Positions 38,114 to 42,536 of a stretch of 64,000 nucleotides of DNA are shown piece after piece. Numbering within the stretch: position 1 is the stretch's first letter; the number at the start of each line of letters is the position of its first letter. The DNA comes from Streptomyces alboniger. Its GTDB lineage: Bacteria > Actinomycetota > Actinomycetes > Streptomycetales > Streptomycetaceae. The position numbers and the translations under genes were made by a program. The stretch covers positions 6,510,001 through 6,574,000 of the forward strand of contig NZ_CP023695.1 of NCBI RefSeq assembly GCF_008704395.1, written 5' to 3'. The notes under the pieces were generated by a model, which saw only the letters and a list, made by a program, of their open reading frames with translations, ran no database searches and was not told where the DNA came from.

Positions 38114-39316
38114 TCACGGCCTGTGTGCGTGATCCGGCACCGCGGAAACGCCGGGCCTGGCCACGCGGAGGATCCCGTCGGCCAGGCGGGCCAGGGCGAG
38201 CAGGGTGGCGAGTGTCCAGATCGCGGCACCGGGCCAGCCGAAGCCGAACAGCAGCGGTGCCAGGACGAGCAGCATGAAGGTGATGAGCAGGGCGGGGAAG
38301 ACCATGGCCAGCAGGCCGTACGGGATGCTCCACCCGCGGGTGAACTGGCGAGGCTGCGGGCTCTGGCGCCACAGGTGCTGACTCAGCCACGAGCGGGCGT
38401 CGGCCATGGCGCGCGGCCGCACGAAGGGCTCGTCGACGAAGGCCAACAGGAGCAGATAGCCGTCGAGTCTGAGGAACGGAATCAGGTTGATGGCGACCGT
38501 GAAGAGGTTGGCCAGCACCAGCCGCCACCAGAACTCGGCTGGCCCGGCCAGGTCGGCAGCCGCGAGGAGAGCGGCGAGCGAGGCCACGCCGGCGTTGACC
38601 ATGACGCCGGCCAGGGCGACGACGGAGCGGGCCCTGCGGGGCAGGCGCCAGCTGGAGGAGACGTCGCAGAAGAACGCGGGGCAGACGTAGTACAGGAGGG
38701 CCACGCCCATGCGGCGCGGGTGGCCGCCGAGTGCGGCGACCGCGGTGGCGTGGCCGAACTCGTGGCAGACGTTCACCACGATCATGGCGAGCAGGATGTG
38801 CCACCACATGCCGGGTGAGGGGTCGAGCAGCGACCGGGCCATGTCCGGGAAATGGGTGGCGGCCAGACAGACGCCGACGACCAGGAGCAGCGCGTACAGC
38901 AGCCGCGTGATCCGGCTACCGGCGAGGGTGCCCACCGCGGCCAGCGCGCGGGTCAGTCTGTGCGGCCGGTAGAGCGTGAGTTGGATGGTGACCGGGTTGG
39001 GCCGCGTGAGTCGCTTTTCGGCGGCTGCGGGGCCGTCGGTTTCGAGCAGGCCGAGGCGCGTGAAGTGCTGGAGTAGTTCAGCGGCCTTCCGCGCCCCGAT
39101 CCGGGCCGACCAGGCGCGGGTGACCTCGTCGCGGGAGCGGGTGCCGTCCAGGTCTCGCAGGAGCCCGATCGCGTCCCGGCCCATGCGGAGATACAACCCT
39201 TCCGGCAGACTCACCACGGTTCTCTCGCCGTGAGTGGTGAACTCGACGCCGGGTCGCAGAGCGGGCCGGGATGGCGTTTGCACGGGCGGGGCAGGCGAGA
39301 CAGCCGAGGTAGTCAT
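38114..39316 (-). CDS. PqqD-like domain fused to M50 intramembrane metalloprotease
   Basis: A 400-residue protein. Residues 22-95 (GERTVVSLPEGLYLRMGRDA, then LLQHFTRLGLLE) look like a small winged-helix PqqD-type module, the fold of RiPP recognition elements. Residues 130-390 are a multi-span M50 protease with HEFGH at 185-189 and the third metal ligand in FLRLDGY (Asp285), plus the CPAFFCDVSSSW element seen in peptide-processing M50 enzymes such as daptide MpaP. It therefore should bind a peptide leader and cut it in or near the membrane. The gene directly upstream encodes the candidate peptide, 148 bases away. Confidence 0.85.
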   Translation of the reverse strand: MTTSAVSPAPPVQTPSRPALRPGVEFTTHGERTVVSLPEGLYLRMGRDAIGLLRDLDGTRSRDEVTRAWSARIGARKAAELLQHFTRLGLLETDGPAAAEKRLTRPNPVTIQLTLYRPHRLTRALAAVGTLAGSRITRLLYALLLVVGVCLAATHFPDMARSLLDPSPGMWWHILLAMIVVNVCHEFGHATAVAALGGHPRRMGVALLYYVCPAFFCDVSSSWRLPRRARSVVALAGVMVNAGVASLAALLAAADLAGPAEFWWRLVLANLFTVAINLIPFLRLDGYLLLLAFVDEPFVRPRAMADARSWLSQHLWRQSPQPRQFTRGWSIPYGLLAMVFPALLITFMLLVLAPLLFGFGWPGAAIWTLATLLALARLADGILRVARPGVSAVPDHAHRP

Positions 39317-39464
39317 CAGGTCAGGTCTCTGTGGGGAGCAGGGCGAGTGATGCCCGTCGGGCCCGGCACGGGCCGCCTCGTGAAACGACGTTGCGCGAGG
39401 GCGAGTAACGCCGGGCGAGGCGGCGCGCGCCGGAGGAGGGGAGGGAGTTGCCGGTGGGGGCGTC

Positions 39465-39737
39465 TCAATGGGCGCCGTTCCACCACCGCTGGGTGTTGTA
39501 GGCGGCCGAGCCGAAGTTCTTGACCGCCTGGGCCCCGTGGTTCCACGCATCACCCCAGTTCCCCTTCACGCCTTCGTGGACGGCCTGCCCGGTGTGTCCC
39601 ACCCCGTCCCAGCCCTGCTTCCACGCCAGCTCGCCGGGTCCGTCGAGCGGTGCGACGTGGGCGTCGAGGGGCTCCAGGACCTCGATGTCCAGATCCAGTG
39701 TCGGGTCGAGGGCCTGCGTGCTCATGAGCGCCTGCAT
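39465..39737 (-). CDS. Candidate RiPP/bacteriocin-like precursor peptide
   Basis: A 90-residue peptide without cysteine or a signal sequence. The first 34 residues are acidic and leader-like (LDLDIEVLEPLDAHVAPLDG), similar in feel to the LxLxxLExLxA leaders of daptide-type peptides. The remainder is Gly-, Ala-, Trp- and His-rich, net near neutral, with two imperfect 17-18-residue repeats (WDGVGHTGQAVHEGV and WGDAWNHGAQAVKNF) and the end RWWNGAH. ATG 39737 has AGGA seven bases upstream; ATG 39725 is an alternative. It lies just upstream of the PqqD-M50 protease gene, the expected position of its substrate. No known family was recognised. Confidence 0.65.
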   Translation of the reverse strand: MQALMSTQALDPTLDLDIEVLEPLDAHVAPLDGPGELAWKQGWDGVGHTGQAVHEGVKGNWGDAWNHGAQAVKNFGSAAYNTQRWWNGAH

Positions 39738-39991
39738 GTGCGTTCCTGCTTTCTGTCCGGAGAGGGTGGCGGGTGCCCGCCTGACGATTCAGAGAAGCAG
39801 AACACCGACGCTCTTTCTCCTACCGCCCATTCGCCCCGGCGCGAAGTCGCTCGATTGGCGCCCCCAGGGCGGACCGGTCCGGCGCGTCCGCCACGACGAA
39901 CCCGCTGGGTGAGCCACTATCACGCCGGGAAATCCAAACGGTTTCCCCACTCCAAGTGTGTGCAGTCCCAGTGTTCGCAGAAGGGGAATTC

Positions 39992-40426
39992 ATGTCCGTA
40001 GTACGTCGTGTCTCCGCACTGTCCGTGACGGTTCTGGCGGCAGCCAGCCTGCTCACCGTCCCGGCCCACGCCAGTTCCACCTCCGCCACCTGCGGAAGCC
40101 GACTCGAGCACTACAGCGGCACCTTCACCGGAAGCTTCAAGCCCACCGGGAACAAGGCCACCCACCACGTCACCGTGGAGTTCCTCGAAAGCAACGCGGT
40201 GCACGCCACCTCGGTCAACAGCAAGACCGGCAAGGTCCAGTCCACGGGCGCCAATTACTTCGTCGCCGAGGTCGACAAGAGCCCTGCGATCGCCCTGAAC
40301 ACCATGGAAGGGACTTTCGCGGGTCTCCCGTCCTGCAACTCCCACGGGCATGTCGTCAAAATCAAGGGCGGAGTCTCCAAGGACGGTTTCAAGACCGAAG
40401 CGCCCTTGACGCTCCGAAGGGTCTGA
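39992..40426 (+). CDS. Small secreted protein
   Basis: A 144-residue protein with a clear Sec signal peptide (RRVSALSVTVLAAASLL, cleavage after PAHA) and a mature part of about 116 residues that is rich in Ser, Thr, Gly and Lys, with two cysteines (CGS near the start and SCNS near residue 122) that could form one disulphide. Beta-strand patterns (HYSGTFTGSFKP, HHVTVEFLES) suggest a small all-beta domain. AAGGGG lies five to six bases before the ATG. It is divergent from the precursor gene and convergent with the ABC gene, so it may belong to the peptide island, for example as an immunity or surface protein, but that is only positional. Confidence 0.8.
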   Translation: MSVVRRVSALSVTVLAAASLLTVPAHASSTSATCGSRLEHYSGTFTGSFKPTGNKATHHVTVEFLESNAVHATSVNSKTGKVQSTGANYFVAEVDKSPAIALNTMEGTFAGLPSCNSHGHVVKIKGGVSKDGFKTEAPLTLRRV

Positions 40427-40473
40427 CACCGCCCGACCATTCCCCGCCTCGATACGCCTGTCGTCCTCCCGGG

Positions 40474-42465
40474 TCATGCGGGATCCGCGACGGTGGGAGA
40501 GGCGGGGTTCGGAATGCTTTTGGTGGGGGCGTACTGGGCGGCCTGCGCGGTGAACATGGCGGCGTAGCGGCCCCCGGCGGCCATGAGTTCGTCGTGGCTG
40601 CCGTGCTCGGCGAGGCGTCCGTGATGGAGCACGTAGATGCGGTCGGCATGGCGCACTCCCGACATGCGATGGGTGACGAGGACCACGGCCCGGTGGGGGG
40701 CGGCGAGGCGGCGGATGCGGTCGAAGGCCTCGATCTCGGCCTCGGGGTCGAGGGCGGAGGTGGGTTCGTCGACGATGAGGACGCTGTCAGCCCGGGAGGT
40801 TGAGCTGCGCCAGTGGGTGCGGGCGAGCCCCACTTTCTGCCACTCACCGCCGGACAGTTCGATGGCTCCGCGGAACATGCGGGCCAGCAGACTCCGCAGC
40901 CCGTCGGGGAGTTTGGCGATGACGGGGCCTGCCCCGGCGTACTCCACCGACGGTCGCAGGTCCTGCGGTGAGGCGCTGCGGGCGGGGCGGCCGAGGCGGA
41001 TGTTCATCGCGGCGGTCACGGGCCAGCGCTGGAAGTCCTGGGTGAGCAGACAGACGCGTTCGAAGAGCTGGGAGCGGTTGAGGTCGTTGATGTCCGCGTC
41101 GCCCCACAGGAGGGTGCCGTCCTGGGGAAGCAGCAGACCCGAAAGGATCTTCATCAGCGTGCTCTTGCCCGAGCCGTTCTCGCCCACGACGGCGGTGACC
41201 GATCCCATGGGCAGCGTGAGCGTCACCTGGTCCAGCGCCGGGGTGTCACGGTCGGGGTAGCGGTAGGTGACGTGGTCCAGCACGATCCGCTCGACGCGGT
41301 CGGGGACGGGGGCGCCGCCGTCGGGGATGGTGCGTTGTGCGGCCTGGACGAGGAAGCGTCCGTGGTCGCGTACGTACAAGGACTCCTCGTGCAGCTGGTT
41401 CACGTTCATCACCAGCGCGCCCAGACTGGCCGACCCGGTCCGTACGGCGATCACCGCGGTGCCCGCGACGGCCAGACTCATGTGACCGCTCGTGATCAGC
41501 CAGAACATCGTCCCGTAGGTCGCCGCCATCGCGAGGCCGGACAGGGCGGCGGCGACCCACTCGGTGAGGGCCTTGCTCGTGGCCAGTCGCTCCTGCTCGG
41601 CTTCGGCGCTCTCGGCCATCCGCCGGTAGCGGCTGAGCAGGAAGGCGCCGACGGCGTGGATACGCACCTCCTGTGCGGCGCTTCGCTCGGTGAGGAGGTT
41701 GCCGATGAGGCGGCCGGCGCGCACGTGCTCGATCCAGCTCATCCGTGACACGTAGCGCTCCTGTGCGACACGCATGGCGCCCCAGCCCCGTGGGGCGGCG
41801 ATCAGGATCAGCATGGGCAGCAGGGCGGGGTGCAGGACGGTGAGCACGCCGGCCGTGGTGATCAGCGAGATGACGCCGTTGAGCGCGGCGACGCAGGCCC
41901 CGATCATGCGGCGGGCGGAGGCCGGGCCGTACTGGGCGATGTCGATGAGCCGGCGGAAGTCGGGGTCGTCGATCGCCTCCAGTTCGACGGAGGCCGAGGC
42001 GGCCAGGTACTGGGTGGTCGCGATCCGCTCGACGAGCGGTTCCAGACGCCCCGCCCGGGAGGTGGACCACGCGGCCAGGGCCGAGTTGACGACGCCGACG
42101 ACCCCCGCGGCGAGCAGGCCGGGCAGCAGGGCGTGCAACCGCTCGACGGGGCTGCCGGTGCCGCCGAGCAGGGCGTGCATGACGGCGTTGACGGCGAGCA
42201 GTCCGACGGCCGCGGCGATGCCCTGGCCGATCTCGCTCATCGCCACCGCGAGGAGCGCTCGCCGGTCGGCGTTCCAGGCCATGCGCAGGGTCGCTCCGAC
42301 CAGGCCCGGCATGGAGCGGAGCGCGGAGCGCATGGTCAGGTCCAGGGTGGCGTGCTCGTGTTGGGACCAGCCCATGTCGTAGCGCAAGGGGCCGCCGAAC
42401 AGCTCCCGTTCGGCGTCGGAGACCTTGGGCTCGGCCATGCGTACCGGCCCGAAGAACCTCTTCAC
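40474..42465 (-). CDS. ABC exporter, fused permease and ATPase
   Basis: A 663-residue half-transporter. A six-helix permease (residues 60-350) is followed by an ATPase with Walker A GENGSGKST, Q-loop LLTQDFQRW, signature LSGGEWQKVGLART, Walker B VLIVDEPTSALD and H-loop VTHR. There is no C39 peptidase domain, so any leader must be removed elsewhere, which fits the nearby M50 protease. Architecture and sequence feel match exporters of peptide natural products. GTG 42465 follows GGAGG by about seven bases and overlaps the stop of a 24-codon micro-ORF (GTGA); ATG 42438 is a weaker alternative. Confidence 0.88.
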   Translation of the reverse strand: MKRFFGPVRMAEPKVSDAERELFGGPLRYDMGWSQHEHATLDLTMRSALRSMPGLVGATLRMAWNADRRALLAVAMSEIGQGIAAAVGLLAVNAVMHALLGGTGSPVERLHALLPGLLAAGVVGVVNSALAAWSTSRAGRLEPLVERIATTQYLAASASVELEAIDDPDFRRLIDIAQYGPASARRMIGACVAALNGVISLITTAGVLTVLHPALLPMLILIAAPRGWGAMRVAQERYVSRMSWIEHVRAGRLIGNLLTERSAAQEVRIHAVGAFLLSRYRRMAESAEAEQERLATSKALTEWVAAALSGLAMAATYGTMFWLITSGHMSLAVAGTAVIAVRTGSASLGALVMNVNQLHEESLYVRDHGRFLVQAAQRTIPDGGAPVPDRVERIVLDHVTYRYPDRDTPALDQVTLTLPMGSVTAVVGENGSGKSTLMKILSGLLLPQDGTLLWGDADINDLNRSQLFERVCLLTQDFQRWPVTAAMNIRLGRPARSASPQDLRPSVEYAGAGPVIAKLPDGLRSLLARMFRGAIELSGGEWQKVGLARTHWRSSTSRADSVLIVDEPTSALDPEAEIEAFDRIRRLAAPHRAVVLVTHRMSGVRHADRIYVLHHGRLAEHGSHDELMAAGGRYAAMFTAQAAQYAPTKSIPNPASPTVADPA

Positions 42466-42536
42466 AGGGCGCCTCCCCGAGGGGCGGCGTCTTCGAACGC
42501 AGGATGAATGAGGGCAGGGCGACACAAGCGGTGCAT
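42462..42536 (-). CDS. 24-residue micro-ORF translationally coupled to the ABC exporter
   Basis: ATG 42536 is preceded by GAGGAG with five bases of spacing. The frame runs 24 codons, starting MHRLCRPALIHPAFED and ending APRGGAL, and its TGA overlaps the GTG of the exporter by four bases. The peptide has one cysteine and two histidines. It may be a coupling leader, a second small peptide product, or a chance frame that gives re-initiation. No family was recognised. Confidence 0.5.
   Translation of the reverse strand: MHRLCRPALIHPAFEDAAPRGGAL

Follow-up and report, generated by a model that had tools for sequence, protein, structure and literature searches.

A candidate modification-poor, daptide-related leader peptide cassette built around a site-2 protease in Streptomyces alboniger

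A 64,000-nucleotide stretch of the Streptomyces alboniger genome (NZ_CP023695.1, positions 6,510,001 to 6,574,000; hereafter the window) encodes a short precursor peptide and, directly downstream, a site-2 protease (S2P) fused to a RiPP recognition element (RRE; RiPP, ribosomally synthesized and post-translationally modified peptide). We consider these genes to be, on balance, a daptide-related peptide cassette that is poor in modification. The conserved unit comprises precursor and protease, joined in three of five loci by a divergently encoded small secreted protein. The cassette is not a daptide, because MpaB, nearby MpaC, MpaD and MpaM, and a C-terminal Thr were each sought and were absent. 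Its central features are as follows.

39465..39737, (-): precursor peptide gene, 90 amino acids (aa), stop codon counted in
38114..39316, (-): RRE-M50 (site-2 type) protease gene, 400 aa
39038..39271, (-): protease RRE (PqqD-like) domain, approximately residues 16-93, from the structure model, RRE chain matches and PqqD 3g2b
38750..38764, (-): protease HEFGH zinc motif, residues 185-189, from sequence and alignment
39657..39680, (-): leader motif VLEPLDAH, residues 20-27, aligning to positions -8 to -1 of the daptide motif ELExMEAP
39992..40426, (+): small secreted protein gene, 144 aa, divergent; third conserved gene in three of five loci

A precursor-protease pair recurs across genomes

The preliminary description of this DNA had placed a 90-residue precursor, containing LDIEVLEPLDA and ending in RWWNGAH, upstream of an HEFGH M50 protease. 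That arrangement is confirmed, with a gap of 148 nt between the two genes, and so is the pairing it implied. The precursor lies directly upstream of the protease in all five loci read: the window and, found in DNA adjoining related proteases, S. aurantiacus (L066), Streptomyces sp. ASQP_92 (L067), G299 (L044) and G279 (L045). Since the same leader type stands upstream of homologous proteases in four further genomes, the pairing exceeds chance. Precursor and protease matches in NRRL S-920 and S. hundungensis come from contigs of equal size.

A single-sequence search with the window precursor returned itself and two relatives (NRRL S-920 and S. aurantiacus), and a 7-row precursor alignment added four proteins, one each from S. 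hundungensis and NBC_01381 and two from NBC_00003, the latter both weak (E 0.13 and 0.34). The G299 precursor begins with GTG, and G279 encodes two precursors. Across the 7-row alignment M1, L16, L21, E22, L24, A26 and P30 are invariant; leaders are similar, and cores run from closely related pairs to ones with no recognisable relation. DGPG is common to six precursors. Window-type cores lack Cys, and core charge (K+R minus D+E) is -1 in the window and -2 to -6 in nine relatives. The helical moment of the core exceeds that of shuffles in the window (p 0.014) and in seven of the nine relatives (p 0.012 or less), but not in G299 (p 0.098) or the second G279 peptide (p 0.208). Relative to S. aurantiacus, the window cassette shows purifying selection, with nonsynonymous and synonymous rates (dN/dS) of 0.05/0.52 for the leader, 0.19/0.24 for the core, 0.11/0.22 for the protease and 0.08/0.31 for the secreted protein.

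In the two G279 precursors (L045:7735-8544) the leaders are nearly identical and the cores unrelated. The second precursor contains two Cys, and a similar pair occurs in NBC_00003 (P0026, P0027).

Leader and protease are related to those of daptides

In the report on daptides (PMC10036551), the leader motif is ELExMEAP, the protease MpaP fuses an RRE to a site-2 protease, and the leader variants L(-7)A and M(-4)A abolish processing by MpaB/C. The window family carries a variant of this motif, VLEPLDAH, and has Leu at both position -7 and position -4 in all ten precursors. We ran a leader-only profile of these ten over 22,725 small open reading frames from the loci gathered, accepting E up to 10. 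Outside the minimal loci (those with precursor and protease but no daptide enzymes) it found 37 distinct other matches, 34 of which end in Thr, as daptide precursors do, against a background of 6.1% of small open reading frames; the best E was 0.0022, and these loci are rich in daptide precursors, many of them near copies. The NCBIfam model daptide_123 matches one of seven precursors (E 0.008). None of the ten ends in Thr, the window peptide ending in NGAH. The relation to daptides and the non-Thr C-terminus, both proposed earlier, hold: leader and protease are common to daptides and the window cassette, core and chemistry are not.

The structure model of the protease shows an N-terminal RRE-like domain, with matches to RRE chains, followed by a site-2-protease core. 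A profile comparison also matches the N-terminus to PqqD 3g2b (E 0.0033), but the Pfam PqqD family has no match in the protein. The earlier assignment of an RRE-type fold to this domain is supported. Within the limits of the fold scores, the locus thus has an RRE fold fused to a processing enzyme, as in RRE-dependent RiPP systems generally. Against the NCBIfam daptide-protease (MpaP) model the window protease scores 275.4 bits, below the cut-off of 300; of nine clade members scanned, four others (P0016, P0017, P0018 and P0019) reach it and five fall below.

Matches to the protease at E 1e-10 occur in 62 of 391 genus-sample genomes, its own included, the best after its own being G299 (51%) and G279 (44%), with all others at 36% or less. 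The 20 protease neighbourhoods read comprised 15 daptide clusters, three with YcaO-type genes and two minimal loci. We built a protease tree of 60 rows, 28 labelled daptide (at least two of mpaB/C/D/M matching nearby) and 27 unlabelled, omitting distant sequences (L040, L041, L042, L043, L107 and L140) and near or identical copies (L017, L019, L068 and L083). The five minimal-locus rows fall within one 12-member clade (support 99/97) that contains none of the 28 daptide-labelled rows; surroundings were read for five of the 12, and the remaining seven include proteases from S. violascens, S. chrestomyceticus, S. hundungensis and RKAG293. Gene context was tabulated for 41 of 80 loci (L066-L106), and in 33 of these two or more of mpaB/C/D/M matched. 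The other eight are the minimal L066 and L067, three at contig edges (L071, L077 and L078), L102 with mpaM only, and two Actinomycetaceae loci outside the minimal-locus clade (L093 and L104) with no mpaB/C/D/M at 1e-6. The first L066 flank reaches 1.7 kb past the protease, to the contig end.

Within the clade, the MpaP C-terminal region is kept in G279, P0017, P0018 and P0019 (533-578 aa) and missing from the eight other rows (356-412 aa), as if it had been lost once. Elsewhere, PqqD-M50-type proteases of ~30% identity (L059:9935-10818 and L060:9823-10704) adjoin a YcaO-like gene and, in series of four, short precursors rich in Ser and Cys.

Daptide chemistry is missing from the cassette loci

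When the flanking genes of the five loci were compared with one another, they showed the protease common to all five, precursor and secreted protein common to the window, L066 and L067, one transposase common to L044 and L067, and no common modifying enzyme. Genes resembling mpaB, mpaC, mpaD or mpaM were not matched near any of the five. Genome-wide at E 0.001, MpaB is absent from all five minimal genomes, with two copies in the positive daptide control G083; MpaC, MpaD and MpaM, searched for at the loci, had no match among the 58 called window genes or in the four other loci. Nearby daptide aminotransferase, dehydrogenase and methyltransferase are thus missing, as the preliminary description had noted. 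Its suggestion that the peptide carries few or no modifications is consistent with the data at the level of gene content only.

Two findings leave room for the alternative that the peptide is a RiPP modified in trans, by tailoring enzymes from other parts of the genome. PqqD-family matches occur elsewhere in all five minimal genomes, four of them in the window's own, and downstream of the G299 cassette lie genes for a class III lanthionine synthetase and an LLM oxidoreductase. We nevertheless regard modification in trans as unlikely, given the missing MpaB, the lack of a modifying enzyme common to the flanks and the Cys-free window-type cores.

The G299 genes (L044:3574-7582) lie on the same strand as the cassette and encode the lanthionine synthetase (RamC_N, kinase and LANC_like), the LLM oxidoreductase and a putative 38-aa precursor of their own, ending in SCAWTCPGTA.

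The secreted protein and the ABC exporter

Three further elements surround the precursor.

39362..39434, (-): stem-loop in the precursor-protease gap, folding z -3.4, stem kept in S. aurantiacus
39738..39991, no strand: divergent region between the starts of precursor and secreted protein, a likely promoter region from the gene arrangement
40474..42465, (-): neighbouring ABC exporter gene, 663 aa, probably outside the cassette

None of 200 shuffles was as stable as the stem-loop; the z after the precursor is -5.2 in S. aurantiacus, -3.9 after each G279 precursor, -1.7 in ASQP_92 and -0.2 in G299. A scan of the divergent region for sigma-70 promoters found none.

The secreted-protein gene, missed in the preliminary description, encodes a protein with a signal-like N-terminus, as judged by eye, and a weak beta-barrel structure model. 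Two other species keep it next to the precursor. Because the protein is rare (two of 391 genomes by single sequence, and eight of 295 by profile, several of these partial matches only), its presence beside three of five precursors is unlikely to be chance. Relatives in G288 and G151 (L150:8692-9156 and L182:7224-7685) lie divergently among similar biosynthesis-type gene sets, as seen by eye, which suggests that members of this family may go together with diverse secreted products.

A C39-less ABC exporter about 0.7 kb from the precursor had been put forward as a component that exports the cleaved peptide. The gene itself is as described: it shares the precursor's strand, its stop lies ~0.74 kb upstream of the precursor start, and Pfam finds ABC_tran with weaker ATPase-type matches and no C39 peptidase at E 1. 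Related ABC proteins exist in all five other genomes searched (66% identity in ASQP_92), which would suit a role in the system. These relatives, however, lie elsewhere among unrelated genes, the exporter adjoins none of the four other cassette loci, and in the window the divergent secreted-protein gene separates it from the precursor. Given its absence beside those four loci, the exporter probably does not belong to the cassette, and we judge export by this transporter improbable.

Discussion

Gene content, homology, predicted folds, the common leader motif and the conserved pairing are all established directly, and together they resemble that half of a daptide system which recognises and removes the leader, here on its own. 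That no daptide chemistry genes lie beside it suggests that the recognition-and-cleavage machinery can work on its own. From motif and fold we infer that the membrane protease binds VLEPLDAH through its RRE domain; its M50 core would then remove the leader at or near the membrane. Cleavage might fall after position -1, as in daptides, to yield a 63-aa product, or after DGPG, to yield one of 55 aa. Without modification, products beginning at residues 28, 31 and 36 have calculated average masses of 6751, 6484 and 6044. The released peptide, 55-63 aa long, would be rich in Gly, Trp, Tyr and His, slightly acidic and probably partly helical, presumably with few if any modifications and perhaps with an activity of its own. 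The stem-loop may hold protease expression under that of the precursor. Release may involve the protease, in the way believed for EpeP (PMC10885120), or a general exporter. In one branch, the divergently encoded, beta-rich secreted protein may accompany the peptide outside the cell for carriage, binding or self-protection.

A bolder version of this scheme, possible but doubtful in our estimation, is that unmodified leader peptides need only an RRE-guided intramembrane protease to be both cleaved and moved out, while a secreted beta-barrel partner serves to bind, carry or neutralise what is released. The cassette would then be an RRE/S2P counterpart of C39-exporter bacteriocin systems, one that has lost daptide chemistry or arose before it and that changes genomic location as a set of two or three genes.

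Fold comparison of the protease also returned RseP and SpoIVFB, which are regulatory site-2 proteases. The small protein could accordingly be a membrane-linked regulatory substrate, cut in regulated proteolysis or signalling, rather than an exported natural product. We give this little credence, in view of the RiPP-type leader with its core variation, the RRE domain that the protease carries, the stem-loop following the precursor and the paired precursors in G279. Least probable is that the cassette is what remains, decaying and without function, of a daptide cluster whose enzymes were lost. The kinship of leader and protease to daptides and the loss of the protease C-terminal region in eight of 12 clade rows speak for it. 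Against it, frames are intact in five genomes, as is HExxH, dN is lower than dS for the precursor, the protease and the secreted protein, the unusual core is kept across species at 52-77%, and the third gene is conserved in three of five loci.

The cassette favoured here, modification-poor and daptide-related, can be set against three known systems. Daptides (PMC10036551) share the ELExMEAP-type leader, the N-terminal RRE on a site-2 protease and the proximity of precursor and protease genes. They differ in having MpaB, absent from all five minimal genomes, and MpaC, MpaD and MpaM, with no counterpart near the five loci, in a product whose C-terminus is Dmp-modified, and in a short, aliphatic, Thr-ended core, which contrasts with an acidic one of 55-63 aa; the window-branch protease also lacks the C-terminal region, and no two-part ABC transporter lies beside the window cassette. 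Epipeptides, where cleavage and export of EpeX are believed to be the work of the M50 protease EpeP (PMC10885120), likewise employ an M50 membrane protease for small-peptide release, if cleavage here is as we propose. The window leader is instead of daptide type, its protease reaches 50.4 bits with the YydH/LiaK model, whose cut-off is 225, and no radical SAM enzyme was found among the 10 flanking proteins scanned.

Unmodified bacteriocins are leader-bearing peptides cut by C39-ABC exporters. The window peptide resembles them in its leader, its amphipathic stretches and, by gene content, perhaps its lack of modification; it differs in a net-acidic core and in apparently losing its leader to an RRE-M50 protease, and the exporter close by has no C39 match and no conserved place at the locus.

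We found no description of this cassette in the open-licence literature searched. RRE domains are commonly regarded as handles for delivery to modifying enzymes. A precursor and RRE-protease that recur together, with modifying enzymes absent from their vicinity, would be evidence that a leader can be recognised for the sake of cleavage only. An automatic 'daptide protease' label would then not imply a daptide, and a two-gene system would allow RRE-S2P cleavage, and possibly membrane release, to be studied without other enzymes.

Genomic surroundings

A family scan of window genes flanking the cassette assigned them to the catalase, SPW, SCO4226-like, DUF6003, PAP2, hydrolase, PEP-mutase, deacetylase, MerR and SIS types and left one with no family.
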